Assembly (NCBI RefSeq): GCF_024343775.1
Contig: NZ_RJUF01000024.1
Span: forward strand, 1-52,363
Source: Lacihabitans soyangensis
GTDB taxonomy: Bacteria; Bacteroidota; Bacteroidia; Cytophagales; Spirosomataceae
Reading direction: 5' to 3'
DNA length: 52,363 nucleotides
Positions 1 to 17,671 of the stretch are shown in pieces; within the stretch, counting starts at the first letter, position 1; every line of letters starts with the position of its first letter. The position numbers were made by a program, and so were the translations under genes. The notes under the pieces are model-generated. The model saw only the letters and a list, made by a program, of their open reading frames with translations, was not told the origin of the DNA and ran no database searches.

Positions 1-3000
1 CTAGACCCGAGGCAATGGCAGCTGTCCCACCTGAAGGAGCCCATGAATAGGTATAATTAGGATTTCCACCAGATGCCGATACTGTAGCTGATCCGGTACT
101 TGCTCCATTACAAAATATTCGTTTGTGCAGAAATAGATGCGACCAGGCCGTAGGCTGAGTGATGTTGACCGTTGCTGTTTTCTGACAAGAGTTGGCATCC
201 GTCACCGTAACGGTGTAAGTTCCGGCTGATAGGCCGGTTGCTGTTGCTGCAGTACCCGTATAAGTGCCAGCTGCTAGACCCGTTGCCGTCGCCGCTGTTC
301 CACCTGAAGGAGCCCACGAATAAGTGTAGGGAGCAGTACCGCTTGATGCTGTTACTGTTGCAGTTCCGTTATTTCCACCATTACAGCTCACATCCGTTTT
401 GGAAAATAGACTTACTACAGGTGTTGAGACAATTGTTATTGCATTGGTGGCGACTCTACCGCTCACGCAGTTTGTTGATTCACAGGCTGCATAATAGGTA
501 GTGGAAACAGTCGGAGAATTGGATAAATTTGTTCCTGTTCCGATATTTGAGCCACCTGTAGCAGTAGTGTACCAAGTGAGCGTTGTACCACTAGGGCAAG
601 TACCCGATAGGGTTACACTTGTACCTGAACAAACAGTTGTGTTATTGACTGAAACAGAAGTAGGCTTTTTATTGTCAAAATCAAAAGGTACCACAAACGT
701 ACAAGTACCATCTGTTACTTGGGCATAAAGTGTTTGTGTACCAGTTGGGATAGTATTGTTTGCTGTAAACATATTTCCAACCGAAGTATAACTTCCTGCC
801 GAGGTAGTTGCTCCTGCATCCGTGAAAATGCCACTTACTGAATAATTATTACTTCCACCCAAAGTAAAGATTGGACAAGAATTTGTAATTACTACTTTGT
901 TATTTGTTATACCCGAAACAGCATTAGCTTTCAATACACCATTGTTTGTGAATGTGCCAGTGTTTGTAAAGCTATATGTATTTGGCATTTGAATTAAACC
1001 TGTATTGGTGGTTGTACCACCATTGGTGTAAGTACCACTCGCCATAAGTATTTTACCACAGGCATTGTTGTTAATTGTATTGCCAGTAGGGTTTTCAATA
1101 CCAGTTCCCGAATTTATGTTTACTGTACCTGTATTGGTGAAGTTTGTAGTTCCCAAAAACTTAAAGGCCAAAACCGTACCGTCATAATTTATAGTTCCCG
1201 CATTACTGAAGTTTACAACATCTGTTGGTAAAGCCATCTCCACTCCGATGCCCCCCACTATGTTTATGATACCGTTTAGGCTATTGGTAATTGTTGCTGG
1301 TGTTGAAACAGAGCCAACACCGATTGCTTCATCGGTGCTATTAATTTTTATAGTACCATTGTTGGTTAAAACCGCATCTGTTGCTTGAAGATAAATATAG
1401 GCTGGAATAGCAGTATTTGTTGCCGATTCAATATTTATAGTTCCATTATTAGTCAATGTTCCTCCCGCAATTGTAAATCCTTTGCTTAGACCACCATCAC
1501 CTCTTATGTTTAGTGTTCTTCCACTGTTGATTGTCAGAAGTGCTGTCGACTGAATTTCGATCGATTTAATATCAGGGACTGAAGAAGAGACAACTGGTTT
1601 ATTAGCAGTATTAGGAATAATAACTTTCCCAGTGGTGAGGTCAGGCACCCAAGCGGGGTTCCAGTTACAAGCCGTGTTCCAATCTGTACTCAATAGCCCT
1701 GTCCAAGTGATATTTACATTTCCGGGTGATGAACCGAGTGGTGTACACGGATTGTATGATACATTGACATTTGTACTTGGTTCACTCACGCAAGTATTTG
1801 TTCCTGTACATCTGGCGAAAAATGTTTTGTTTGATGAAATTGTTGGGGTATTATTCGGTAAAGCTACCAAAGGATTGGCTGAATCATACCACGAGATAGT
1901 ATTTGGTGAATTACAGCCGGAAGCCGTAAGAGTCGTTGTATTGCCAGAAACTGAAATGGTGGAGGGTAAGGCTACAGGGCTGGTTGGAGCTGGAGTAGAA
2001 TTTACAGTAACTACTGTTTGAGATGTACTGGATGTACATCCAGTAACCACGATGTTCAAACTGTATGTTCCTCCAGCAGCTGTTGTTACATTGTTTATCC
2101 CAGGATTTTGTAAGGATGAACTAAAACCATTCGGGCCAGTCCAAGAATAGGTGGCTCCAGATACCAAGGGAGAAGACAACGATAAGTTATTTCCAACACA
2201 AAGTGGAGAATTAGATGAAATGGATGGTGTGGCAGGCGTAGTGTTAACAGTCACACTTCCATTAATATTGCTTGAGGTACAACCGTTTGCATTTTTTACA
2301 GTTAAGACATAAGAAATACTTGGGCCAGATGCACCACTACTTAGACCTACAGTTATTGGTGATAATGAAGGCATTGTAGCATCTATCACAGGGGTAATAC
2401 CAGCTCCCGAAATTGAAAAAGTGGTTGGTGTACCTGAGGTAGTGGTATATGGAATTGTAAACGAGGTCGCTCCCGAACAAATTGCAGGGCTGGCACTGGT
2501 AGTAAGTGTAGGCAATGGATTTACTGTGACATTACCGATTACATTACTTGAAGTACACCCTCCAGCATTTCTTACTGTTAATGTGTAAGAAATACTTGAA
2601 CCTGATGCTGGACCACTCAAACTTACTGTGATAGGCGATGAACTAGGTAAAGCTCCATTAGTTACTGTTGTGATGCCTGTTCCTGAAATTGAATAGGTAG
2701 TCGGGCTACCTGTTGTAGCAGTATAAGGTATCGTAAACTGCGTTGCTCCGGTACATATAGCAGGACTAGCACTGGTAGTAATGGTTGGTATAGGATTTAC
2801 AACCACACTTCCCGTTACATTGCTTGAAACACAACCATTGGCATTTCTAACCGTCAGCGTATATGAATACGAGCTACCAGTGGCGGCACTGCTCAAATTA
2901 ACTGTTATTGGTGTAGCAGGCAAAGAAGCATTGGTTACTGTTGTAATACCAGTACCCGAAATAGAGTAGGTTGTTGGAGAACCTGTTGTAGCGGTATAAG

Positions 3001-6000
3001 GTATTATGAATGAAGATACACCTTCACAAATGGCAGGGCTTGCACTTACCGAAATTGTTGGTAAAGGGTTCACTGTAATAAGGCCTGAATTAGTCCTGGC
3101 ACTTTCACAGCCATTTACTTTACAAGCTGCTTGGTAAGTGGTGTTTGTGATCGGAGATTGACTAAAAGTAGCTCCAGATGCTGATGTGCCTAAAAGAGTA
3201 CTCGGTGCAGCAACTGTATACCACTGAACCGTACCGATCGAACAAGTAGCTGAAAGCGAAATACTTTGTCCTGTACATATCGAGGTAGCTGTTGTAACCG
3301 CTGTTGGAGGTGGTATTACTATATTGCTTGTCGTAGTATTTGAATTTACAGTAGAAAAGTTACTGCCCGAAACTGAAGCTGTATTTGTGATTGCACAAGT
3401 ACTTGGCGAATTGCTGATAGTAGCACTAAATGTAATAGTAGTGGATTTTCCGGCTGGAAGAAGGAAACCTGAGCCTGCACCGTTAACAGTTACGGTCTCG
3501 CCGGCCTCTATACCTGTCAAAGATTTTTGCGTATTATCCGAATCGTTTACATTTACTTTTTTCTCTACTAACGTGGCTTCTTCGTTTGAGGATTGCTTAT
3601 CAATTCTTAAGTTACTTTCAGACCTAGCTAAATCGTCTGAAATTTTGGAGGATTCTAAAGAGGCCATTGTTGCCTTTCCTGGTTCTGCAATTAAAGCTGA
3701 TGGTGCAGCATTGTTTGGGGTAAGGCATGTACCTCCCGCTCTAAATTCTAAAACACCAAAACCACTATCTCTAACACGAGTACTAAAAGGGGAGGAGCCT
3801 GGGCTATTTGGAGTATTACTGTTACCGTTCCAATATGTTGTAGAATTCGTTTCACCAACACCATTTATACCCTCTCTCCATATTCTACTGGCATTTCCTC
3901 CTGAAACTCCTTCAGTTCTAAATCTTAATAAACCGAGTCCGTTTACATCAATAGGGTTGATTGTATTTCCCGAAATTTTTACGCAATTGATTACATTTGA
4001 CCATGTAGCACCACTACTGCCATTTCCACTAAGCACATCAATACCGTAATTAGATAATAGTTCTTCTATGATATTATTGGTAATTGTTGCATCAAGGCGA
4101 GCCGTTTCAGCTGCGGCTTCTGGAGTATTTTCAGCAGCTTGTAAAGTTAGGTTTCCTTTAGTAATGGTATTACTATTTACTTGAACTACTCCATTACTTT
4201 TACCTCTTACTAAGATATTAACAGCAGTACCAGCATCTGTCGAGTGTCGGGTTAGGATATTGCCATTAAATTTACCTTCCATTCCTCTGCCAGAGGCAGG
4301 TGTGAAGTCAGACCCATCAAAGTTATTACTATAAAATTCAATCGGTAAGCCTCCTTTTGTAAGTATAGAAGTATTGTTCAATACATTAAAAGTGGTTTTG
4401 GCACTTCTGAGGTTATACAAGTGAAAAGCACCACCCACATATGTAGTTCCTCCATCATAATTTACACTACTTCCCTGAATACCTACATCAGTTATTGCTG
4501 AACCAGTAGAAGTGGTGTAGACAGCATAGTTGTTGAATCTATAGAAGGCTGAGTTTTTAATATTGAGTGTTCCCACTGTACTGCTGTTGGCAGCAGTTGT
4601 AGTTTCGTAAGCAAGACCATGATTGTCATTCGGGCTGGTAGTTAGCTGACCAGTGAATGTCGAATTATTTACATTGAGTGTCATGGCTACATTTTCGTTT
4701 AGAATATGTACACATCGACGGTCGTATGACGTGGTTGCGGGAGTAGTTGGTACGTTCAAGGCATTAGCTCCAAGCGATAGTGCAGAATTGTTAATAGCAC
4801 AAGTGCCCGATAAATTATTTGCATAAAAACAGCTCTTGGAGGTATTTGTGATATTCATGTAATTTAAACTTACGCTACTCACATTATTTAGAAAAACTCC
4901 ATTTTCAGTAGTATTCTGTATAGTACCACCGCTACCAGCCGTAGTTCCAGAACCAGTAATATTTAGTGCACCGGTAGTATTTTGAATATTGAGACCATTG
5001 GCAGCACCACTAGCCGAGACACTGACGAATGTAAGAGCTAAACCTACCTTGTTAGAACTATTTGTTCCTGTAATATTTACACCAACATTGTTTGTTGCCG
5101 AAATGGTACCAGTGGTATTTGATAAACTTCCGGTCACAGAGGTTGCTTTGAGAGCAGTTGCAGTTGATGAACTGGCAGATATTTCTTGAAAACTGCAGGC
5201 CAATATACCATTGGTTAAATCTAGGGCTGCACCTGTACCAATTAAGTCCATTTCGGATGCAGTGAGGGTTCCAAAGTTATTGCCTACAATATCCTTGGTA
5301 CTGTTGCCCATATCGAATCCTCTTAGTGTATTATTACTTCCTAGAGTAATGGTGGTTCCACTACTAATGGTAAGGTTAGGCTGGGAGAGATTAGTGGATG
5401 GCAATGCAGGGCTTGAATGGGCAGGTACCGTAACACCCGCAAAACTTGCTAGGGAGACAGTTGCTCCTGCTCCTAATACTTTCTGTCCTGATTTAAGAGT
5501 TGCGGCCCCCGTGTAAGTTCCCGAATACACAAATATTGTTTGATTTGCGGCTGGATTCGTCGCTCCAGAAAGTGCATTAGAAGCAGCAAAGTCAGACCAA
5601 TTTTTAAACGGATTGGCCAATGTTCCAATGTTTGTGCTAGTCGTTGCTGCAATATCAACAAACCATATCGGGCTTGTAACTGTAATAGTAACTGTTCCGG
5701 TGCCTGTTAGGCTGCTTGAAGAGCCAGTAGCAGTATATGAAAAAGTAGTGGTCCCACTAAAACCTGCGTTTGGTGTGAAAGTAAAACTTCCGTTAGGATT
5801 AAACGTAACTGTACCGCTAGTTCCTGCGGTATTTACGGCTGTTACAGTGATTGGCTCATTGGTGGGGCTGTTGTCATTAGCCAAAAGTCCGCTTCCAGCA
5901 GGCACGTTGATACCCACGTTCCCTATGCTCGAATAAGCATCATCTCCTGCAATTGGAGTAGCTTTTACACTACCAGCAACCAATGTCAAGTCACTAATTA

Positions 6001-6382
6001 ATTGATCTGTAAATAACACGCCTGTTGCATCATTAGCAGAACCAGAGGCCGTATTGCTCAAAATAATACTGTAATTAAGGATGCCTCCAGGTAAAGCATT
6101 ACCACCACCTTGTACTGTTACAGATTTAGTAGCAGTTATAGTAGGTAAAAAGAAGGTTTCTTCAACCCAGTTTTGTGTTCTGCTCAAGTAATTTGTTTCG
6201 CCGACTTGCGGTTTCAAAACCATAGAGCGATATTTTCTTGGAGGATTGGTCTGTTTTGCGGCATTGGCTGGCTTGCTTTTTAGGTAAGCAGTAGAATCTA
6301 CCCTATTTATATCTAAATTCGAAATACCAAACATGGTAAGTACAAATCCGATACTCGCAATTAAAAGATAAATTTGTTTCAT
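1..6382 (-). CDS. Giant multidomain secreted surface protein (partial, C-terminus off left edge)
   Basis: An open frame runs from an ATG at 6382 to the left edge without a stop, giving at least 2127 codons. Modules visible in order: a signal-peptide-like N-terminus (about 1-22); a DUF11-like repeat (about 77-147); a cadherin/Big_9-like Ig domain (about 148-230) with a TVTAVNTAGTSGTVTFNP stretch; a long Asn/Ser/Gly-rich parallel beta-helix region (about 235-960); another DUF11-like piece; an Ig-like domain; three tandem Ig-like copies of 91-92 residues; a WTGPNG module; a 'WTGLLSTDWNTACNW' module; a second NNGTI-rich beta-helix (about 1600-1860); an Ig-like domain; and SprB-type repeats (VSCNGGNNGTATVTASSG, YSWAPSGGTAAT) up to the edge. 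SprB repeats are known from T9SS gliding adhesins. The T9SS sorting tail, if present, lies outside the window. It starts 25 bp after the DUF6916-like gene, so co-transcription is likely. Role inferred: adhesin or surface filament. Confidence 0.9.
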   Translation of the reverse strand, partial: MKQIYLLIASIGFVLTMFGISNLDINRVDSTAYLKSKPANAAKQTNPPRKYRSMVLKPQVGETNYLSRTQNWVEETFFLPTITATKSVTVQGGGNALPGGILNYSIILSNTASGSANDATGVLFTDQLISDLTLVAGSVKATPIAGDDAYSSIGNVGINVPAGSGLLANDNSPTNEPITVTAVNTAGTSGTVTFNPNGSFTFTPNAGFSGTTTFSYTATGSSSSLTGTGTVTITVTSPIWFVDIAATTSTNIGTLANPFKNWSDFAASNALSGATNPAANQTIFVYSGTYTGAATLKSGQKVLGAGATVSLASFAGVTVPAHSSPALPSTNLSQPNLTISSGTTITLGSNNTLRGFDMGNSTKDIVGNNFGTLTASEMDLIGTGAALDLTNGILACSFQEISASSSTATALKATSVTGSLSNTTGTISATNNVGVNITGTNSSNKVGLALTFVSVSASGAANGLNIQNTTGALNITGSGTTAGSGGTIQNTTENGVFLNNVSSVSLNYMNITNTSKSCFYANNLSGTCAINNSALSLGANALNVPTTPATTSYDRRCVHILNENVAMTLNVNNSTFTGQLTTSPNDNHGLAYETTTAANSSTVGTLNIKNSAFYRFNNYAVYTTSTGSAITDVGIQGSSVNYDGGTTYVGGAFHLYNLRSAKTTFNVLNNTSILTKGGLPIEFYSNNFDGSDFTPASGRGMEGKFNGNILTRHSTDAGTAVNILVRGKSNGVVQVNSNTITKGNLTLQAAENTPEAAAETARLDATITNNIIEELLSNYGIDVLSGNGSSGATWSNVINCVKISGNTINPIDVNGLGLLRFRTEGVSGGNASRIWREGINGVGETNSTTYWNGNSNTPNSPGSSPFSTRVRDSGFGVLEFRAGGTCLTPNNAAPSALIAEPGKATMASLESSKISDDLARSESNLRIDKQSSNEEATLVEKKVNVNDSDNTQKSLTGIEAGETVTVNGAGSGFLLPAGKSTTITFSATISNSPSTCAITNTASVSGSNFSTVNSNTTTSNIVIPPPTAVTTATSICTGQSISLSATCSIGTVQWYTVAAPSTLLGTSASGATFSQSPITNTTYQAACKVNGCESARTNSGLITVNPLPTISVSASPAICEGVSSFIIPYTATTGSPTTYSISGTGITTVTNASLPATPITVNLSSAATGSSYSYTLTVRNANGCVSSNVTGSVVVNPIPTITTSASPAICTGATQFTIPYTATTGSPTTYSISGTGITTVTNGALPSSSPITVSLSGPASGSSISYTLTVRNAGGCTSSNVIGNVTVNPLPTLTTSASPAICSGATSFTIPYTTTSGTPTTFSISGAGITPVIDATMPSLSPITVGLSSGASGPSISYVLTVKNANGCTSSNINGSVTVNTTPATPSISSNSPLCVGNNLSLSSPLVSGATYSWTGPNGFSSSLQNPGINNVTTAAGGTYSLNIVVTGCTSSTSQTVVTVNSTPAPTSPVALPSTISVSGNTTTLTASGCNSPNTISWYDSANPLVALPNNTPTISSNKTFFARCTGTNTCVSEPSTNVNVSYNPCTPLGSSPGNVNITWTGLLSTDWNTACNWNPAWVPDLTTGKVIIPNTANKPVVSSSVPDIKSIEIQSTALLTINSGRTLNIRGDGGLSKGFTIAGGTLTNNGTINIESATNTAIPAYIYLQATDAVLTNNGTIKINSTDEAIGVGSVSTPATITNSLNGIINIVGGIGVEMALPTDVVNFSNAGTINYDGTVLAFKFLGTTNFTNTGTVNINSGTGIENPTGNTINNNACGKILMASGTYTNGGTTTNTGLIQMPNTYSFTNTGTFTNNGVLKANAVSGITNNKVVITNSCPIFTLGGSNNYSVSGIFTDAGATTSAGSYTSVGNMFTANNTIPTGTQTLYAQVTDGTCTFVVPFDFDNKKPTSVSVNNTTVCSGTSVTLSGTCPSGTTLTWYTTATGGSNIGTGTNLSNSPTVSTTYYAACESTNCVSGRVATNAITIVSTPVVSLFSKTDVSCNGGNNGTATVTASSGTAPYTYSWAPSGGTAATATGLAAGTYTGTAATATGLSAGTYTVTVTDANSCQKTATVNITQPTAWSHLFLHKRIFCNGASTGSATVSASGGNPNYTYSWAPSGGTAAIASGL
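212..301 (-). repeat. Tandem 15-codon duplication within a SprB repeat
   Basis: Codons at 301-257 and 256-212 encode almost the same 15 residues (GTAATATGL, then A or S, then AGTYT), back to back. The second copy then continues into the normal VTVTDAN ending. About 12 of 15 codons differ at the nucleotide level, mostly at third positions, so this is not a recent replication slip. Confidence 0.85.
2236..3070 (-). repeat. Three tandem Ig-like repeat units (91-92 aa) inside the giant protein
   Basis: The motif P-T-[IL]-[ST]-[VT]-[ST]-A-S-P-A-I-C recurs with its Thr codon at 3058, 2785 and 2509, so the units are 273 and 276 bp long. Each unit continues with a 'TYSISGTGIT' core and ends in 'NGC.SSN..G.V.VN'. 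Protein and DNA similarity between units is high, which points to internal duplication. Confidence 0.85.
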
Positions 6383-6407
6383 ATAAAAGGCCTTTAAAAA
6401 TTATTTT

Positions 6408-6716
6408 TTATGAGAAAACTGCTTCATATTTCATCCCTTCAGAATCATAGCCTTTGGGAGATAAAAACATTGGTATGTCGCCTAGTAAGGGATGTATAAT
6501 GATGTAAGTTGACTGTGGATAATATTCGTTTTTTTGTTTTGTTCTGAAAATAATCGAAAACGGTTTTCGCTCGAGTGGAGAATAACCATTCAGTGCTATC
6601 AATTCTACCAATTGAGCAGGAAGGGTTACTGTTGGCTCAAATTGAATGTCAAAACTTTTATCCAAAAAGTCTTTAAAATCATTATGTGTCAGTGTACTTA
6701 GTTTTTGTAATTCCAT
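6408..6716 (-). CDS. DUF6916-like small protein
   Basis: This 102-residue soluble protein has no signal peptide or membrane segment. The order of short motifs (an early THNDFKDFLDKSF segment, a LPAQLVEL segment, 'ERKPFSIIFRTK', then a C-terminal 'GDIPMFLSPKG') resembles the DUF6916 family. From memory, that family is found beside phage-collar-domain proteins; I could not search to confirm it. Its start overlaps the end of the GNAT gene by 19 bp, which implies translational coupling, and the giant surface-protein gene begins 25 bp after its stop. Its function is unknown. The context suggests an accessory role in assembly or display of the collar proteins or the giant protein. Confidence 0.65.
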   Translation of the reverse strand: MELQKLSTLTHNDFKDFLDKSFDIQFEPTVTLPAQLVELIALNGYSPLERKPFSIIFRTKQKNEYYPQSTYIIIHPLLGDIPMFLSPKGYDSEGMKYEAVFS

Positions 6717-7198
6717 TGTAATAAATGATATACTCCGTTTGTTTCGGAAATTTTCTGAAAACCCAATCTTTTGTATAATGCCATTGCTGGATTAAAACTC
6801 TCCACATGAATAGTTATATGCTGCTCTATTATTTTTGCATGTTCCATAATATCATGCAGGATTGTTGTGCCTAAACCTTTTTTTTGAAACTCAGGTAACA
6901 AAGCGATGTCTATAATTCTCAAAGTGGCCTCAAAATTTTCTTGGTAATACAATCGCCCAATGATTTCACTACCTTTTTCTATTATCAAGAAATTGGCACC
7001 CAAATAATTCTTTTGATAATACTCATGTTGAGCTTCAAACTGTTGCGTAAGAAATGCCTGCTTCATGCCTTCAGTCCAATCGCTAACCTGGTTAAGCTCG
7101 GCCTCTCTGGTACCGAAATAAATTTTTTTCAGAAAGGGAACATCCCTTTCTGAAAAAAACCTAAGTTTTAAATCCTTATTTTTCAAAGATAAAATCAT
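6698..7198 (-). CDS. GNAT-family N-acetyltransferase
   Basis: This 166-residue protein has the GNAT fold signature. Its acetyl-CoA loop reads QKKGLGTTIL (about residues 105-114), preceded by the 'IDIALLPEF' strand and followed by a NPAMALYKRLGFQ segment near the C-terminus, all classic motif A/B features. The substrate cannot be read from sequence. It lies 28 bp after the stop of a collar-domain gene and overlaps the DUF6916-like gene, so it belongs to the same transcript. Modification of a protein in this cluster is a reasonable inference but is not shown. Confidence 0.85.
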   Translation of the reverse strand: MILSLKNKDLKLRFFSERDVPFLKKIYFGTREAELNQVSDWTEGMKQAFLTQQFEAQHEYYQKNYLGANFLIIEKGSEIIGRLYYQENFEATLRIIDIALLPEFQKKGLGTTILHDIMEHAKIIEQHITIHVESFNPAMALYKRLGFQKISETNGVYHLLQWNYKN

Positions 7199-7226
7199 AG
7201 CCTTCTTATAGTTCTTAACCTAAAAC

Positions 7227-7745
7227 TCACTGCCGAGGCGGAAAAACACCCTGCAAAGCAATGCAGAAGTTAAGTGTCAAATAGGGCTGCATATTATTAT
7301 GAGGTAATGAACCACCGGTAATAGATAACTGATTGGGAGACATCGATGTATTGGCCACACTGTTGTAGGTCGGAATATTGGCAATGGCCAAATAACTTTG
7401 AGGCCCCGGAATTCCTCCAGAATTTGACAAATCAGCTACCACACTAACTTGGTGACTATGTATTGGCATTTCAGACTGGAGAAGTGTTATATTCTCAGAA
7501 CCAGATATTTCACCAATATCGTGCAAACTCAAGCCAGGCCCTTGCCCCCAAAACATAGGTGCCGAGCCTTGTAGATTTGGAAGTGCAAAATTTGACTTAC
7601 CATCACCACCGTATGTTGTTCCAAGAAGTGAAAATAAAGCCGTATTTTGAGATAAAGGCAATATTTGTCCTTGACAAAAAGCCCAACCTTTTGGAGCGAA
7701 ATTAAAGCCGAATATTCTTATTTCGGCTACAAATGGATCTGCCAT
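7227..7745 (-). CDS. Phage tail collar domain protein (copy 1 of 3)
   Basis: This 172-residue protein of the Tail Collar (PF07484-type, MdpB-like) family starts with MADPFVAEIRIFGFNFAPKG and WAFCQGQ. It then has GTTYGGDG followed by FALPNLQG, an H-S-H pair (MPIHSHQV, about residues 100-107), and a GGSLPHNNMQPYL-plus-hydrophobic ending. HxH pairs bind metal in the receptor-binding tips of T4-like tail fibres. There is no signal peptide. It is the third gene of a tandem triad, 105 bp after copy 2, and is followed by GNAT. Function in bacteria is not established; a surface or contractile-particle fibre role is only inference. Confidence 0.85.
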   Translation of the reverse strand: MADPFVAEIRIFGFNFAPKGWAFCQGQILPLSQNTALFSLLGTTYGGDGKSNFALPNLQGSAPMFWGQGPGLSLHDIGEISGSENITLLQSEMPIHSHQVSVVADLSNSGGIPGPQSYLAIANIPTYNSVANTSMSPNQLSITGGSLPHNNMQPYLTLNFCIALQGVFPPRQ

Positions 7746-7850
7746 AATGTTTTTAGTTTAAAGGCCAATTTTAGAATTGATAATATTTTTTAGAAAAGAT
7801 TCTACCCACAATCAGAATGCATTTGCATCGAAATATGGATCAATTTGTTA

Positions 7851-8369
7851 TTAGGTAGGACTTGGGTAAATACCAAATAATGAAATGATAAAGCTAACAC
7901 ATAAATAAGGCATCATATTCTCATGGGGTTGGCTACCTCCAGTATTATTAATCGAAGCAGCATTCATGGTATCGCTGGGGGTGTCCCTCAAATACAAATT
8001 AGCTGTAGCATTAGCCAAAGAGTTACCTTGTGGCGAGCTCGCCGATGCTGCAGTACCTGATACTAACATAAGGTGATTGTGAGCCGGTATCTGATTGTTT
8101 GTCAAAGTAACTGACTCAGAACCTCCTGTTTGTCCTATTATATAATTACTGCCGATACCAGGACCCTGCCCCATGTGCACTGGTAACCTTCCTCTCATGT
8201 CAGGTACAGCGTAAGTTTGCTGCCCATCACCTCCATAGGTGGTACCAATCAACTGAAAAAGAGTTTCGTATTCGCTTATTGGCAAAAGACTTCCATCACA
8301 AAAAGCCCATCCTGCGGGGGCGAAATTCCCCGCAAACATTCTTATTTCGCCTACATATGGTTGTGCCAT
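7851..8369 (-). CDS. Phage tail collar domain protein (copy 2 of 3)
   Basis: This 172-residue paralogue of its two neighbours starts with MAQPYVGEIRMFAGNFAPAG and has WAFCDG, GTTYGGDG, VPDMRGRLPVHMGQGPG, an H-N-H pair (IPAHNHLM) and the C-terminal GGSQPHENMMPYL signature. The middle, between the HxH pair and the last 35 residues, is poorly conserved among the three copies, as expected if it forms the variable tip. It lies 25 bp downstream of copy 3. The three copies have diverged well beyond recent duplication. Confidence 0.85.
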   Translation of the reverse strand: MAQPYVGEIRMFAGNFAPAGWAFCDGSLLPISEYETLFQLIGTTYGGDGQQTYAVPDMRGRLPVHMGQGPGIGSNYIIGQTGGSESVTLTNNQIPAHNHLMLVSGTAASASSPQGNSLANATANLYLRDTPSDTMNAASINNTGGSQPHENMMPYLCVSFIISLFGIYPSPT

Positions 8370-8394
8370 AATTTTCTTGTTTTAAGGTTAATAA

Positions 8395-8901
8395 TTAGTT
8401 TTGACTCGGAAAAATACCCTGCAAGGCTATACTAAAATTAATCGTTAGAAAGGGCTGCAGGTTGTTATGAGCTTGGCTGCCTCCGACTTGCGAAACAGTA
8501 TTGGCTGGTAATGATGTCGCTGCAGGCCCATTGGTATAAATGTTTGGAGGGGCAGAGTTAGAGAAAAAATTACCTATGGGACTGGTGACATTACCAGTAG
8601 TTCCATTGTTTGCACCCACAAAATGAGAATGGGCTGGCATTTGTGTTAAATTAAGGGTTACGTTTTCAGTACCCGCCCTCTCACCAAGCGTGTGTCCGTT
8701 TCCAAACGATATTGGAGTTCTACTTCTCATGTCTGGTAACCCGAAAGTAGTTTGACCATTTCCACCAAAAGTTGTACCCAATAGTGAAAAAAGGGCTTGA
8801 TTTTGATTGATGGGAAGTAATTGCCCGTTACATAATGCCCATCCTTTGGGGGCAAATCCAAAGGACATCAATCGAATTTCGGCTAAAAAAGGTTCTGCCA
8901 T
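8395..8901 (-). CDS. Phage tail collar domain protein (copy 3 of 3, first gene of the cluster)
   Basis: This 168-residue Tail Collar family protein has MAEPFLAEIRLMSFGFAPKG, WALCNGQ, GTTFGGNG, LPDMRSRTPI, an H-S-H pair (MPAHSHFV) and a GGSQAHNNLQPFLTI ending. It is the promoter-proximal gene of the cluster; a candidate TAATTTTG promoter element lies about 47-54 bases upstream. The gap to the next upstream gene on this strand is 121 bp. No capsid, portal, terminase, sheath or integrase gene is nearby, so this is not a visible prophage. Confidence 0.85.
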   Translation of the reverse strand: MAEPFLAEIRLMSFGFAPKGWALCNGQLLPINQNQALFSLLGTTFGGNGQTTFGLPDMRSRTPISFGNGHTLGERAGTENVTLNLTQMPAHSHFVGANNGTTGNVTSPIGNFFSNSAPPNIYTNGPAATSLPANTVSQVGGSQAHNNLQPFLTINFSIALQGIFPSQN

Positions 8902-9022: not shown

Positions 9023-9631
9023 CTAGACCAATATACTTGTCTCGTTTTTCTGCTTTTCCAGAAAAACAACCCTTTTCATTCCCTTACCTTCAAATGCCAG
9101 ACTGCCAACAATACCATTTTCCGCCAGATTTATTTTAATAATCATTCTTGAGGTATTACACATAAAAGAATTATTAAGACCATCAATCACCCGTCTTTGA
9201 GGTAAGATATCAGATGACTGAAAATTCGAAAGTTTTGTAAGTTCATTGGATAAAATCAGAAACAAATCAGCTTCATGTTGATTCAAAACACCTACATACT
9301 TCCAATTTTCGTGTTTGCAAAAAAGCAATACAACTTCGTCTATCAATTCGCCATGAATTTCTAATCTGATTGGGCTCACTGCATAATTTTTGGATGCATT
9401 GAGCAAACAACCTCCTGGAGAATTATTATAACCTAGTTTTCTGAATGAATCCGTATGACTTTGATGTAAACTTGCCAGTTCTAAAGGAAGAAAATGGGAA
9501 TGTAAACCAAACAAGTCTTTGAAAGTTTGACTTCGGCTTTTTGAATTGTTGGAGAAAATATCTTTTCTAGCAAAGGCTTGGTTGACTGCAAGCATGGCTA
9601 AAGCAATAAATCCTCTTCTTTTAATTTTCAT
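9023..9631 (-). CDS. Small secreted protein of unknown function
   Basis: I do not recognise this protein. I chose the ATG at 9631 (202 aa) because it gives a proper signal peptide: MKIKRRG followed by the hydrophobic stretch FIALAMLAVNQAFA. An upstream GTG at 9667 would place 12 extra residues before it. The mature part is mixed alpha/beta with no repeats and no obvious catalytic motif, and contains CLLNASKNYAVSPIRLEIHG and MIIKINLAENGIVGSLAFEG. The last stretch resembles beta-strands of a two-layer fold. It is downstream of the AraC-family gene on the same strand. A pair of direct repeats (9732-9764) lies just upstream and could be a regulator site. Confidence 0.6.
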   Translation of the reverse strand: MKIKRRGFIALAMLAVNQAFARKDIFSNNSKSRSQTFKDLFGLHSHFLPLELASLHQSHTDSFRKLGYNNSPGGCLLNASKNYAVSPIRLEIHGELIDEVVLLFCKHENWKYVGVLNQHEADLFLILSNELTKLSNFQSSDILPQRRVIDGLNNSFMCNTSRMIIKINLAENGIVGSLAFEGKGMKRVVFLEKQKNETSILV

Positions 9632-9731
9632 GACTAATGGGTTAGGGAAAAATCTAAAGGTTGTCACAATAACTGAAAACCACTAGAACTTTTTATTTAT
9701 GCAAAGCTATCGAAGGTCTTCATTAATAGTG

Positions 9732-12565: not shown

Positions 12566-15500
12566 TTAATCATTACCACATCCATCTATTACTGCCTTGA
12601 AAGTGGATCCAGGCAATACCTCAAATCCAGGATTCAGCAATATACTCTTTTGTGAGTCATAAACAATATTACTCACTGGACTAATCTTCGTTATGGAATT
12701 TATTTGGTCATTTGATTCAAACTTCGATTTTGTATTCGTTAAAAAACCGCTATAAATAGGGGAGTTATGACAATCATTAAAAACTATTTTCTGTGATGGT
12801 TTACTAATGCACCCATTTGTAACACATTTAACAGTTTGAAATACATTACTGGTCGGAGTATGGACAATACTGTTGGGTTCACTTAATGAACTATTGAAAC
12901 TCCAATCTGAAAATTGTGTGCAATTAGATGCGAAAGTAACCGCATCGCCAATTCTTGCGTTTTCAGGAGAGTAAGTGATGGTAGGTTCTGGAGTTTCTGT
13001 ATAGGTTAGTTGGACGGTTGAACTGGCCGTTCCAGCACACGAGCCTCCTGTAATGGTGGCTGTAAGGGTATAGATGCCTGCCATAGCCGCAGTTATGGGT
13101 GCATTAAAATAAAAAAATCGATCAGCTACACTAAAGCCATTTGGACCTGTCCAAGAATAAGCAGTACTCGCAATTCCATTATATTCTTGATTTGAACCGC
13201 CATCTAAAATCACAATATTACCATCGCAGGCGTTGGCTACAAAGTTATTTGTGGCTTGTGGATTGATGTTACCCACCGTCTCAGAGTAAATAAAGGGGGT
13301 TACTTTAGGGATATTTGAAAGTGTAACAATATTAGAAGCAACCCTCGTCTCTGGGCAACCATTAAACGATATTGTTGCTGAATACAAACCAGAGGAAGCT
13401 GCCGAAACAGGCGATACGCTATACCCACGACTGGAGTTTGTAACATTTAAGCCATTTGGGCCAGTCCAATTGATACTGCTAATGTTATCGCTTGAAAAAT
13501 TACTGTAATTTTCAACCTGAATATAAATCCCTCCTGTATTTACTAAGCAATATTCGCCTCCATATGATCCAGTACTCAATACAAATGAAGGGGCTGAATT
13601 AACCATGTTTAAACTAACACTTGCCGTACTGGTAACATTACAACCACCACCCAATACTGCTGTCAGACTATATAAGCCAACTTTATTTGCGTTCATTCCT
13701 GTTATTGTTGCGGAGGCTTGGGTGCTATTAAATCCATCAGGGCCCGACCATTGATAAGAAACAACTGGAATAGGACCCGAAGTACTTAAAGTTGTGTTAG
13801 CACCTGGGCATAGATTTGTCCCATTTAAGTTGATATAAACCCTTGGGTTTGTCAAAATAGAAAGTGTAACAGTAGCTGTAGCGGTAGATATACAGGAACC
13901 AGTGAAAGTAGCACTTAAAGTATATATTCCGGCATGAATGGACGAAAAATTAGAAATGGATAGATTTTGCCCAGTACTTGTAAATGAGTTCGGTCCTGCC
14001 CAACTATATGTCACTTGTCCAGATTTGTTAGTGCCTGCCACTAATTCTGTTGTACCACCTATGCAATATTGACGACTACCATTTACATAAGCAGTAAAAC
14101 TTTCTAAGCTTAATGTAACACTGCTGCTAGCTATTCCGGTACATGCTCCTGAATACGAGGCCGTAACGGTATAGCTACCTACTTTGGAAGCATTAAAATC
14201 TGTAAGTCCTAGAGAAACACCATTGCTAGAGAACCCATTTGGCCCGGCCCAAGAATATAAAACAGAAAGACTGGAATTACTAAATTGTGCGATATTGTTG
14301 GAACTTCCACCCTGGCAAATAGCTGTTGTGCCAGATATATAAACAGAGGGGGTAAACATAGTAAGATTAATGGTGCTTGTACTCGACCCACTACATGTAC
14401 CTGTGTAAGTTATGGTAGAAGTATAAACTCCAGCTTTCGATGAATTAAAATTACTGATGGTTGGATTAGAAATATTGCTTGAAAAGCCACCAGGCCCACT
14501 CCAAGAGTAAGTTAAGCTTAGGCCAGAAGTAGAGGCATTCAAAAAAGTTTGAAATGAAATGTTGGCTCCCGAACAACTGAGACCAGAATAAAAAGCCGCA
14601 CCAGGCAAATTGTTCGAAACGGTAATCGAATTCGTTGCAGTGGCTTTGCCTGAACACCCTCCGACATATGTTGCTGTTAAAGTATAAATTCCAGAGGCTT
14701 GCGTGGTAACGTTTGTCAAAGTCGGACTTGATTGAGTGCTGAAGAAAGAATTTGGCCCAGACCATGCGTAGCTGGGAGTTTGGCTGTATATCACCTCAGA
14801 GGAACTGTTCAAATTAAAAGATTGACCAGGGCAGACGATTCTTGGAGAAATTTGACTCAATGTCGGTGTTGAGGTTAAGGTCAAACTCACAGTGGCGGTA
14901 TATAACTTACAAGACTCCATTGCGATACTTGTAGTATAAGTTCCTTGGTTTGAAATACCCGCATTGATTATAGAAACGGGGTATCCCGTCCCAGTGAAAG
15001 CATTTGGACCTGACCAGTCAAATGGTAACGATGATGAGCCTAAGCTAATATTAAAAGTGGCAAAAAGACTGACATTAGAGCCGCTACAATACTTATATGT
15101 TCCATTCGAATTAGAGCCATTGGCATTGGCTATTAAACCAAAAGAATCTTTGTTTTGTAATAAAAATGATGAAGACTCATTACTGGTGGTTGTACCGCCA
15201 TTTACTTTAATTCTTATTTTGTAATTCGTACCTGTAGAAATATTTGTGGGTAAGGTTATACTTACAGGACTGGTAGTTCCGCTACCTATAACCGTAGGGC
15301 TAGTAAAAACCCCTAACGCATCAGAAAGCTCAACATTAAAAACTGTACCGTTCGCAAAAGTACCATTTAGATCAAATGGTATGTTTGCAGTTCCGCCAAA
15401 ACAAAGGATTGATTTGTTGAATTTATTGTCAATTGTAGGATATATAAAACCCCTCATAGCAGCTGTAAAAACACCTCTGCCTTCTGTACTGATAGCCAAC

Positions 15501-17671
15501 ACACTATCAGCAGTTCTAAAAGCAATCCTACTTACGGGCACATTTGGCAATCCAGTGTTGCTTTGTTCCCAACTTGGATTAGTGTCTGTTATATTATTGG
15601 TTGTAAAAATACCCAAACTGGTGGCTAAAATAACTTTTGGAGTAGATGGGGCAAAAACTGCGTGCTTCACTGGAATATTTGGCAAGCCATGACTTAGCTC
15701 GTCTTTATTTACCCAAGTAGTTCCGCCATTATTGGTGTACCAAACCGAACTCACGCCAAAATTGCTGTAGGTAACCAATATCTCATTTTCTGTTGCTCCT
15801 AAATCTATGGACGAAACCGAACCACTTGGTAGTTGCCCATTTGACAAACTGGTCACTACAGGTGTTGTATTGATGTTTGTCACTTTCACCAAGCTGGTGG
15901 AAGACATATTAAACTGATAGCCTACAAAAATCGTATTGGCGGTTTTTCCGACTTTAATATAATTGACAGGCATCAAAGTTGAAATTACTACATCTTGTGA
16001 TGTTATTAAATTATCCGTTGTGAGTTGTGTTATCCTAAAAGTTGTATTGTTACTACCAAAATTGGAAGTTACGAAACTGTAGATTTTATTATTGAAATAA
16101 TCCCAATCAGAGATTTTGGTATTTACCGGTATGGACTTTAAGTAGTTAAGACTTCCATCGTACAAATTTCCAGCTAAAACAACCTGATTATTATTTGTTT
16201 GATTTACCATGGCAGGGTAGTTTACAAAATAGCTATTGAAAGTCTTGCTTGTCGTGCCCAATGAATGCAACGCATTGTTTATGGCGAATTCCGGTGTAAC
16301 CACCAAACCGTTTTCCACAATGTTTTTTAGTGCAATGGCCGAAGAAAACCCAAGCCTTATATTTTTGTTTCTTGCTATTAAAGCTGACCCCGTGGTGGTG
16401 ATATTGGCAAAATCTGGGGAGTAATAAATCCCTGTTGCAGACGCAACCACAATTGACTGATTATCAGACCCAAGAGCTATTGTATTATAGCTATTTATAC
16501 TGCCATTTGCAGTTAATGATGTCCAACTGGCACCTCCATCTAGCGTTTTGGCGATATAATATCCTCCCAAAATAACTATGTCACTATTTTGTGGATGAAC
16601 ATTTAAAGAATGTCCGAGGGTGTGATTAAAAAGACTGTAACCATAGGCATTGTTAGGCACGTTTATATTTGTCCATGTAATTCCTCCATTTATAGATTTT
16701 TTAAACCAAGCTGCCGTTCCATTAGATATTGAGACAGCGTATATTACTTGAGTGGCACTATTTGCGGAATTCCCTAAACCTATTTGGGTTTTTCCGCCGG
16801 TTGAATTTGGAGTAATATCTGACCATGAAGTTCCTGAAGTATTAGTGGATTTATAAACCTTAGAGTTATTGAAATCACCAAAAGCCGCATATAATATCCC
16901 ATCATTTCCAATTTCAAGGTCGGTACCGTATGGAGTGGTCAATAAAAATGACCAATTGTCACCTCCATCTGTTGATTTTAACAGCCCTTGCCATGTCTGA
17001 ACAAAGATGCCCTCTGTATTTATGATTACTTTATTGATAAATTGCATGGCATAGGCCACAGTGCCAGTAACCGAAGAGTTAGGAATGGTACTATTAATTC
17101 TTATAAAAGTTATACCCCCATCAGTAGATTTGTAAATCCCCGAACCAGAGTATTGACCAAAATTAGCTCCGTAGTCGCCGGTTGCCACATACATTTCAAG
17201 AGTATTGGAAGGATTAAAAGTAATCCAACTAATATTTAGGCTTGGCCAGTTATCTCCATCATTAACCATTTGCCAGCTCGAATTAGAATCAGTTATGTCG
17301 TTGTTAAACCATAAGCCACCGCCAACTGAGCCAGCCCAATACTTTTTGCCCGCAACGTCATTTAGATCCCGAGTGACACACCTCATATCTCCACCTAAGT
17401 CTTTAGGTCCTCGTTCGTACCAAGTCAAATTTGGAGAAATAGCTGAATTTATAGACTTGTTAACAGAGGTTTTCTTCAACAATTCCTCACGTGCTTTTTC
17501 TATTTCGGTGAATGGAATTTTCCCTGTGGACGGGTCCGCATATTGCAGAACAAATCGTTGTTTCTCAACTTCAATACTATCAATTTGGGATTGATTGAAA
17601 ATTTGTGAAGATGAATTTTGAATTATAAAAAATAATAAAATGGATTTGAAGAGGGTTTTATAAGGTATCAT
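12566..17671 (-). CDS. Secreted beta-propeller (BNR/sortilin-like) protein with eight Ig-like repeats
   Basis: This protein of 1701 residues has an N-terminal signal peptide (about 1-22). Residues about 55-745 carry BNR/Asp-box repeats (GIYKSTDGGITF, LLKSTDGGDNWSF, WFKKSINGGITW and WYTNNGGTTWVN), as in sortilin/Vps10 or glycosidase-like propellers. Residues about 800-1580 hold eight Ig-like modules of roughly 85 residues, each with a W-[AST]-GP-[NGD]-x-F/L motif (for example YSWAGPNGFSS). The last 26 residues (beginning SILLNPGFEVLPGSTFKA) look like the '3-coathanger stack' type of C-terminus common in Cytophagales secreted proteins rather than a typical T9SS type A domain. Binding or scaffold function is inferred. 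It is co-transcribed with GH32. Confidence 0.85.
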   Translation of the reverse strand: MIPYKTLFKSILLFFIIQNSSSQIFNQSQIDSIEVEKQRFVLQYADPSTGKIPFTEIEKAREELLKKTSVNKSINSAISPNLTWYERGPKDLGGDMRCVTRDLNDVAGKKYWAGSVGGGLWFNNDITDSNSSWQMVNDGDNWPSLNISWITFNPSNTLEMYVATGDYGANFGQYSGSGIYKSTDGGITFIRINSTIPNSSVTGTVAYAMQFINKVIINTEGIFVQTWQGLLKSTDGGDNWSFLLTTPYGTDLEIGNDGILYAAFGDFNNSKVYKSTNTSGTSWSDITPNSTGGKTQIGLGNSANSATQVIYAVSISNGTAAWFKKSINGGITWTNINVPNNAYGYSLFNHTLGHSLNVHPQNSDIVILGGYYIAKTLDGGASWTSLTANGSINSYNTIALGSDNQSIVVASATGIYYSPDFANITTTGSALIARNKNIRLGFSSAIALKNIVENGLVVTPEFAINNALHSLGTTSKTFNSYFVNYPAMVNQTNNNQVVLAGNLYDGSLNYLKSIPVNTKISDWDYFNNKIYSFVTSNFGSNNTTFRITQLTTDNLITSQDVVISTLMPVNYIKVGKTANTIFVGYQFNMSSTSLVKVTNINTTPVVTSLSNGQLPSGSVSSIDLGATENEILVTYSNFGVSSVWYTNNGGTTWVNKDELSHGLPNIPVKHAVFAPSTPKVILATSLGIFTTNNITDTNPSWEQSNTGLPNVPVSRIAFRTADSVLAISTEGRGVFTAAMRGFIYPTIDNKFNKSILCFGGTANIPFDLNGTFANGTVFNVELSDALGVFTSPTVIGSGTTSPVSITLPTNISTGTNYKIRIKVNGGTTTSNESSSFLLQNKDSFGLIANANGSNSNGTYKYCSGSNVSLFATFNISLGSSSLPFDWSGPNAFTGTGYPVSIINAGISNQGTYTTSIAMESCKLYTATVSLTLTSTPTLSQISPRIVCPGQSFNLNSSSEVIYSQTPSYAWSGPNSFFSTQSSPTLTNVTTQASGIYTLTATYVGGCSGKATATNSITVSNNLPGAAFYSGLSCSGANISFQTFLNASTSGLSLTYSWSGPGGFSSNISNPTISNFNSSKAGVYTSTITYTGTCSGSSTSTINLTMFTPSVYISGTTAICQGGSSNNIAQFSNSSLSVLYSWAGPNGFSSNGVSLGLTDFNASKVGSYTVTASYSGACTGIASSSVTLSLESFTAYVNGSRQYCIGGTTELVAGTNKSGQVTYSWAGPNSFTSTGQNLSISNFSSIHAGIYTLSATFTGSCISTATATVTLSILTNPRVYINLNGTNLCPGANTTLSTSGPIPVVSYQWSGPDGFNSTQASATITGMNANKVGLYSLTAVLGGGCNVTSTASVSLNMVNSAPSFVLSTGSYGGEYCLVNTGGIYIQVENYSNFSSDNISSINWTGPNGLNVTNSSRGYSVSPVSAASSGLYSATISFNGCPETRVASNIVTLSNIPKVTPFIYSETVGNINPQATNNFVANACDGNIVILDGGSNQEYNGIASTAYSWTGPNGFSVADRFFYFNAPITAAMAGIYTLTATITGGSCAGTASSTVQLTYTETPEPTITYSPENARIGDAVTFASNCTQFSDWSFNSSLSEPNSIVHTPTSNVFQTVKCVTNGCISKPSQKIVFNDCHNSPIYSGFLTNTKSKFESNDQINSITKISPVSNIVYDSQKSILLNPGFEVLPGSTFKAVIDGCGND
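12960..15270 (-). repeat. Eight Ig-like W[AST]GP repeat modules
   Basis: The hallmarks DWSGPNAF, AWSGPNSF, SWSGPGGF, SWAGPNGF, SWAGPNSF, QWSGPDGF, NWTGPNGL and SWTGPNGF occur at about 85-residue intervals. Each is followed by a '[AG]xYT.[TS]..Y/F.G.C' strand. The same module occurs once in the giant protein at about 2010-2250. Confidence 0.8.

Follow-up and report, generated by a model that had tools for sequence, protein, structure and literature searches.

The 52,363-nucleotide stretch of Lacihabitans soyangensis DNA analysed here (contig NZ_RJUF01000024.1; called the window throughout) carries three genes for phage-type collar proteins, a GNAT acetyltransferase gene and a DUF6916 gene, which lead into an open reading frame (ORF) for a giant, secreted-looking protein. 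The three collars belong to three classes, A, B and C, that recur together as triads in many bacteria. Our preferred reading, held tentatively and with somewhat less than even confidence, is that this set represents a cell-encoded surface module whose collars would form an ABC heterotrimer capping or assembling a giant surface fibre. The six genes lie on the minus strand in the 5' to 3' order collar A (8395..8901, 168 residues), collar B (7851..8369, 172 residues), collar C (7227..7745, 172 residues), GNAT (6698..7198, 166 residues), DUF6916 (6408..6716, 102 residues, overlapping the GNAT gene by 19 bp) and the giant (1..6382, at least 2127 residues), whose start at 6382 follows the DUF6916 gene after a gap of 25 bp. 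Each collar has the PF07484 domain and an HxH tip. Pfam E-values range from 1e-26 to 1e-28 for the collars (91.8, 99.4 and 96 bits against a cut-off of 24) and are 2e-12 for GNAT and 2.5e-20 for DUF6916 (PF21880; 72.8 bits against a curated cut-off of 27), all above the curated cut-offs. A first-pass annotation of this DNA had described the same triad, GNAT and DUF6916 genes upstream of a protein of more than 2100 residues, and the coordinates, the overlap, the gap and the Pfam matches were all confirmed. The giant reads through 2127 codons without a stop down to window position 2 and the contig begins at window base 1, so its length is a minimum. Across the 5.65-Mb genome the triad accounts for the sole PF07484 matches (E <= 0.001).

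The triad itself has a regular composition. Collars were typed with subfamily profiles in the 113 of 144 three-ORF triads in which every collar passed trimming (31 were excluded), and 105 of these 113 triads contain one A, one B and one C. The order of the three genes varies (ABC 80, BAC 10, BCA 10, CBA 4 and ACB 1 among the 105). Each of the eight exceptions was assigned by margins below 10 bits throughout, and in three of the 105 the margin likewise does not exceed 10 bits. When 291 collars from 97 dereplicated triads were placed in a tree, the classes resolved as largely pure clades, with 85/89 for A (support 0.98), 92/100 for B (0.91) and 92/102 for C (0.92). Across 46 complete loci the pairwise A, B and C distances correlate at r 0.85-0.86, compared with 0.67 for GNAT and DUF6916, 0.46-0.49 for collars and GNAT, and 0.24-0.26 for collars and DUF6916, all values still including shared genome ancestry. 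The HxH motif is present in 386 of the 386 collars that passed trimming, out of 473 collar ORFs. Judged from the tree and the distances, the collar triplication is old and predates the spread of the module over phyla, and A, B and C are co-inherited. An old, co-inherited triplication combined with free gene order is the pattern expected of an obligate hetero-oligomer, and A, B and C therefore probably form one.

Comparison with known phage proteins suggests what such an oligomer could look like. The collar profile matches T4 gp12 (1ocy, E 0.0021) and a long tail fibre (8kec, E 1.6e-7), and gp10 (2fkk, E 0.05) aligns with the second half of the profile; these matches and the HxH tip constitute the likeness to gp12, gp37 and gp10. 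In T4 gp12 and gp37 the HxH motif pins a metal within the trimer, and the phage versions are homotrimers in the virion. The phage proteins thus use one chain three times within a virion, whereas here the chains come from three distinct genes that are co-inherited and have cellular neighbours. In the mechanism we propose, the paralogues A, B and C split before the module spread and one of each was retained, which is the step that typing and tree document. The three chains would then assemble as a 1:1:1 heterotrimer in which the HxH of each chain feeds a single metal site on a pseudo-threefold axis, much as three identical chains do in gp12 and gp37. A monomer model of collar B reached a mean predicted local distance difference test (pLDDT) score of 62.6, with confidence over the first 60 residues only and a low-confidence tip. 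This would fit a tip that depends on its partners, but may also reflect the shallow alignment of 29 rows.

The first-pass annotation had proposed a search of other genomes for three PF07484 genes, GNAT and DUF6916 as an ordered set, and this search showed the genes occurring together again and again in different phyla. When one genome per species was scanned, the best 80 loci were listed, so at least 80 exist. Exactly three collar ORFs are found in 85 of 94 collar-bearing loci and six, or two triads, in two more; six of the remaining seven loci are cut by the end of the locus or contig. Two tandem triads stand within a single locus in both L055 and L092. Triads occur in at least nine phyla (Bacteroidota, Pseudomonadota, Actinomycetota, Acidobacteriota, Chloroflexota, Verrucomicrobiota, WPS-2/Eremiobacterota, Deinococcota and, with Paenibacillus, Bacillota), and cultivated carriers include Sinorhizobium meliloti, Ruegeria sp. 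TM1040 and several Deinococcus. A GNAT gene adjoins triads in eight of the nine, the exception being WPS-2/Eremiobacterota, and GNAT and DUF6916 are jointly present in the first six phyla named. Within the phylum of the window, DUF6916 is encoded in 9 of 296 genomes, and because in 9 of these 9 (the window genome included) its contig also holds a collar no more than 4 kb away, DUF6916 marks the module. Collars of any kind are present in 103 of 395 genomes.

The neighbours of the triads were examined in two samples that share at least four loci (L102/L037, L105/L086, L147/L047 and L148/L084). The similarity sample (L020-L099) was picked for likeness to the window, and 61 of its 78 triads are flanked on each side by 2.7 kb or more. 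The Pfam-drawn sample results from PF07484 over whole genomes, with 79 usable of 80 regions that were hand-chosen among the matches listed; some of these regions hold one or two collars only, and full-flank triads number 24 of 26 in Bacteroidota and 34 of 35 in other phyla. GNAT and DUF6916 accompany 50 and 51 of the 61 similarity-sample triads, 27 and 20 of the 34 Pfam-drawn triads from other phyla, and 7 and 8 of the 24 from Bacteroidota, where a formyltransferase is found in 11 and a PBP-like protein in 11. In many Bacteroidota the places of GNAT and DUF6916 before the giant are taken by two other genes, for a PBP-like protein (PF13458) and a formyltransferase resembling Fmt. The module is arranged as giant-ABC-GNAT-DUF, as GNAT-DUF-ABC-giant or, as in the window, as ABC-GNAT-DUF-giant. 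Of the set as it was originally proposed, GNAT and DUF6916 are replaceable and not obligatory. A second class of Bacteroidota triads (L104, L113, L114, L117, L124, L125 and L127) consists of collars, a PBP-like protein, an Fmt-like formyltransferase and a further ORF of 553 residues in L113 and 1582-2397 residues in the other six loci, and the readable collar N-termini of this class start with Met-Asp/Glu. In two WPS-2/Eremiobacterota loci, L032 (10550-11443) and L038, the triad is followed by one more collar-related ORF, which is lipoprotein-like.

The phage ancestry of the collar raises the alternative that these loci are remnant or domesticated prophages, tailocins or contractile injection particles. 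The collar domain belongs to phage tails, there are matches to tail families of PHROGs, and 255 phage records match as well, with at most 38.9% identity among the 30 matches listed. Relatives on plasmids are closer, however, with triads 44.9-65.7% identical to collar B among the 40 matches listed; the plasmid records with a collar B relative number 65, and 35 of those 40 show three places per record. The window had been described as free of phage structural, lysis and integration genes, and none of these families, nor any tube, sheath, baseplate or capsid family, was recognised by Pfam or PHROGs among 24 further window ORFs. These comprise an AraC regulator and O214 (both methods; O214 is described below), a 1701-residue ORF (Pfam), a levanase-like ORF (PHROGs), and 20 ORFs of at least 170 residues scanned by Pfam at E <= 1e-10, three of which gave no family; PHROGs covered eight window proteins. 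A neighbour scan was extended to every third locus with a triad, 46 in all, and covered 146 of the 165 proteins chosen there, leaving aside module-like ORFs and ORFs under 110 or over 700 residues. The 146 proteins matched 52 PHROGs families, of which 25 are listed, 7 described and none of them structural, and 18 unnamed. They also matched 113 Pfam families, and the 25 listed are translation, metabolic, regulatory or unknown families with no sheath, tube or baseplate; the translation families derive from four related Herpetosiphon loci. The case named beforehand as fatal to a cellular module, namely the set lying inside prophages or contractile-particle clusters, was thus recognised in none of the neighbourhoods examined, among the families listed. 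Tailocins and extracellular contractile injection systems resemble the module in being phage-tail-derived parts used by cells; they differ in that the triads keep the tip domain only, with none of the particle families just named among those listed. Because the set recurs across phyla and no prophage or contractile cluster was recognised, the idea of a dedicated cellular module is well supported. We consider the set very probably a dedicated, non-phage module and an origin as a phage or contractile particle remnant highly improbable.

The second question is whether the giant belongs to the module. The window giant has a signal-peptide-like start (by eye), a Big_9/cadherin-like domain at residues 142-234, a likely right-handed beta-helix at residues ~240-760 (by eye) and Ig_7 domains. 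An ORF of at least 1000 residues lies within 2.7 kb of 55 of the 61 similarity-sample triads, one of them doubtful (in L077, with no Pfam family and possibly out of frame), and of 38 of the 58 Pfam-drawn triads (16/24 in Bacteroidota and 22/34 in other phyla). ORFs of this length, counted by size only, are strongly concentrated beside triads relative to the ground beyond 4 kb in the same loci, with every triad included: 64/402 near versus 6/393 far in the similarity sample (Fisher 3e-14), and 42/353 versus 4/352 in the Pfam-drawn sample (Fisher 2e-9). A Pfam check covered six doubtful large ORFs, the others being assessed from their size and position and by inspection of their termini. It left fibre-like large neighbours for at most 34 of the 58 Pfam-drawn triads; the large ORF of L108, which is not among the flank-complete triads, is a sensor kinase. 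The first-pass annotation had asked whether a giant is the constant neighbour of the set. It is mostly there, but at least 4 of the 38 Pfam-drawn large neighbours are not fibre-like, and it is the usual partner, not a constant one. Where a giant is present, we think it likely, given this enrichment, that the collars work on or with it.

A shared feature of the giants was sought beyond their size. An Ig-like stretch, 'LPAGKSxTITF...GSNF', was tried and set aside as a shared giant domain, being found in only 16 of 76 loci with a neighbouring ORF of at least 600 residues; its last profile round lost the window giant and L085, both earlier phmmer matches. Because of this low coverage another domain, CAP, was adopted. 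CAP spans ~120 residues and consists of G-N-T repeats, the last helix turns, followed by RLRQR..TTVRLPGY.G...DTAAV..FI...N......GGGF.GGAACP.P. It occupies residues 760-889 of the window giant (3716..4105, minus strand), at the end of the likely beta-helix and with no Pfam match, and a Pfam scan of 32 CAP members likewise returned no family match. The profile was built from upstream giants and iterated over the same loci, where it is present in 53 of 112 ORFs of at least 1000 residues beside triads, a size-based count that admits unrelated ORFs, and these span several phyla. Only 7 of 4195 other ORFs carry CAP. Six of these directly adjoin collar genes (they are short or truncated, or their triad is interrupted where the contig ends); the remaining one, in L042, is a second large ORF ~5 kb from the triad. 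By sample, CAP is found in 40/60 similarity, 3/17 Bacteroidota and 9/22 other-phyla loci with a large ORF. Among 149 Acidobacteriota genomes, the 6 with CAP all fall among the 15 with PF07484 (Fisher 4e-7, with three of the six having fed the CAP model and one, G399, being the centre of the draw with its triad known beforehand). Each of the six has a CAP match on the collar contig, and one has a second match elsewhere.

These observations lead to the third step of the proposed mechanism, in which the collar trimer would serve as cap, tip or assembly nucleus of the neighbouring beta-helix and Ig-domain fibre, with CAP, which closes the beta-helix, as the likeliest site of docking in those giants that have it. 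The position of CAP also bears on the alternative that ABC is an assembly chaperone which templates the trimerisation or folding of the giant beta-helix and is then shed. CAP lies within 10 residues of the C-terminus in 22 of 31 ORFs located upstream of a triad on the same strand, and in 1 of 22 located downstream; the C-terminus is where fibre chaperones act. DUF6916 and the twin-arginine partners described below would suit such an assembly line, and the gene-neighbourhood evidence is common to both explanations, while a shed chaperone and a retained cap are not separated by the evidence gathered. We regard the chaperone as improbable, and a retained cap or tip in preference to a chaperone as falling just short of an even chance.

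The smaller neighbours of the triad provide hints about export and modification. The collars have no leader peptide, and their first ten residues are conserved. O214, a small exported protein (9023..9667, minus strand; 202 residues from the likely ATG at 9631) with no Pfam family, is encoded 121 bp upstream of collar A and was absent from the gene list of the first-pass annotation. From its likely start the product begins MKIKRRGFIALAMLAVNQAFA, a twin-arginine-type signal whose signal stretch is KRRGFIALAMLAVNQAFA. Nine relatives of O214 adjoin other triads; eight of them are from Bacteroidota and the ninth (L033) is from a metagenome-assembled genome labelled Alphaproteobacteria. A twin-arginine-like leader is carried in many loci by a second copy of DUF6916, and in others by a PBP or by O214. 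A text pattern for such signals was met in 36/245 ORFs near triads versus 9/318 far from them in the similarity sample (Fisher 4e-7), and in 23/272 versus 6/295 in the Pfam-drawn sample (Fisher 5e-4). Leaderless collars with conserved N-termini and nearby twin-arginine signals led us to the idea of folded export, and the lack of a signal peptide is the reason for proposing, as the fourth and weaker step, that the collars would fold and take up their metal in the cytoplasm and exit with O214, twin-arginine DUF6916 or twin-arginine PBP. Export through a twin-arginine partner is nonetheless doubtful. The DUF6916 protein itself gave a confident model (pLDDT 92.9) with six predicted beta strands; comparison with PDB and BFVD returned no match at E < 0.001 (best TM ~0.5), and because there is no close structural match we read no function for it.

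The same step would have GNAT, or the formyltransferase of other triads, acylate the conserved collar N-termini. The nearest curated model to the window GNAT is the RimI equivalog (46.7 bits, E 3.3e-12), whose cut-off of 86.4 bits is not reached. Residues at collar position 2 that permit removal of Met number 205 in GNAT loci (24 not, 17 unread), 3 in formyltransferase loci (19 not, 11 unread) and 42 in loci with neither enzyme (14 not, 10 unread). The 3 counted as permitting removal in formyltransferase loci are misreads, since L104, L113 and L127 start MEGTMSEIR. Acylation of the collar N-termini is possible on this pattern, if on the unlikely side. The alternation of formyltransferase and GNAT is also what would favour a different explanation, in which a modified surface glycan or peptide is the product of the acyltransferase together with the accessory genes, with the collars as its carrier or receptor and the giant incidental. 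Some triads do lie in polysaccharide or peptide-modification neighbourhoods (Deinococcus ficus, Azospirillum), but no such pathway is prominent among the 25 of 113 Pfam families listed for the 146 neighbours, and we judge this explanation very unlikely. In locus L018, on an Azospirillum oryzae plasmid, triad and GNAT are surrounded by lasso-peptide B2, PqqD-like, asparagine synthetase, 2-oxoglutarate (2OG) oxygenase and glycosyltransferase genes.

A number of results weigh against a fibre-capping heterotrimer and its accessory steps. No ORF of at least 1000 residues lies within 2.7 kb of 20 of the 58 Pfam-drawn triads (10 from Alphaproteobacteria, 8 from Bacteroidota, 1 from Gammaproteobacteria and 1 from Acidobacteriota), and some large neighbours have another identity by Pfam, namely an efflux pump (L133), a polyketide synthase (L156) and secreted glycosidases (L109 and L110). 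Roughly every second large neighbour lacks CAP, and in the Bacteroidota sample this holds for 14 of the 17 loci. Two of 151 Chloroflexota genomes have CAP and one of these (G738) is without collars, so that the reciprocal association does not hold there (Fisher 0.15); CAP therefore marks part of the giants and not all of them. In G738 (contig C3, locus L180) the CAP giant is 2287 residues long, and the 20 kb examined contain neither a collar gene nor one for GNAT or DUF6916. The twin-arginine test is a text pattern and not a trained predictor, and the pattern was met in 31/59 and 23/58 loci by unrelated families. The link between collar N-terminus and enzyme has counter-examples in the formyltransferase loci L116 (unread in the position-2 count) and L112 (two collars only, outside that count), which truly start MS. 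All formyltransferase loci found are Bacteroidota, confining the link to related clades, and for these two reasons it is kept as a hint only. The open-licence papers listed yielded no experimental localisation.

Part of this evidence favours an alternative in which the collars are secreted or released soluble proteins in their own right, lectin- or matrix-like in the manner of RhiB, and are co-regulated with the giant without contacting it. At least 20 of the 58 Pfam-drawn triads (24 once the four unlike ORFs are subtracted) have no nearby giant, and the large neighbours lie on either side of the triad, are sometimes divergent and differ in their domains. The rhiABC genes of Rhizobium are quorum-regulated and expressed in the rhizosphere, and collars of the window type are presumably COG4675 members. 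RhiB is filed as COG4675 'microcystin-dependent protein' MdpB in a table of PMC6969944, and COG4675 proteins appear in a soil metaproteome (PMC5579227). As presented in that table, RhiB differs from the module in adjoining RhiA and RhiC, neither of them assigned to a COG, with no triad, GNAT, DUF6916 or giant there (PMC6969944). Set against soluble, non-contacting collars are the strong enrichment of large ORFs beside triads in two samples and the near confinement of CAP to triad neighbours in the loci examined. We consider free soluble collars rather unlikely and continue to prefer, tentatively, the fibre-capping ABC heterotrimer.

If the collars do cap or build a fibre, the module would represent a phage-tip-derived appendage outside the classes of pili, adhesins and injection systems. 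Giant adhesins of two-partner, type I (T1SS) and type IX (T9SS) secretion systems share with it a giant Ig/beta-helix surface protein and small dedicated partners. Some Bacteroidota giants have T9SS-like C-termini (by eye), and a Comamonas giant adjoins a ShlB transporter. To our knowledge, collar triads, the acyltransferase and DUF6916 are not parts of two-partner, T1SS or T9SS adhesin systems, and the titles and abstract openings listed from open-licence PMC papers contained no description of the triad and its helper set. Conservation of the set over so many phyla, its old co-inherited paralogues and a domain particular to many of the giants point to a common, unnamed function. Were the fibre reading correct, it would supply a function for many non-phage 'tail fiber protein' annotations, for DUF6916 and for a group of giant genes. 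The most specific form of the proposal, a pan-bacterial fibre class in which a metal-pinned, acylated, twin-arginine-carried ABC heterotrimer caps a Sec-exported beta-helix giant via CAP, is quite unlikely in its entirety.

The rest of the window looks chromosomal, with the AraC regulator, levanase-like and other glycosidases, threonine dehydratase, BipA and a SNF2 helicase. The 1701-residue ORF (12566-17671) is a second giant, secreted-looking ORF with an Ig_2 domain, situated on the same strand upstream of the levanase-like gene and with no collar gene directly adjoining. An Rfam scan of the window gave zero matches, and a promoter and terminator scan gave counts not above those of shuffled sequence. 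Within the 5' part of the GNAT gene lies an inverted repeat (7123-7159) of 17 pairs with a 3-base loop and flanking T/A runs, which could be an attenuator between the collars and GNAT.

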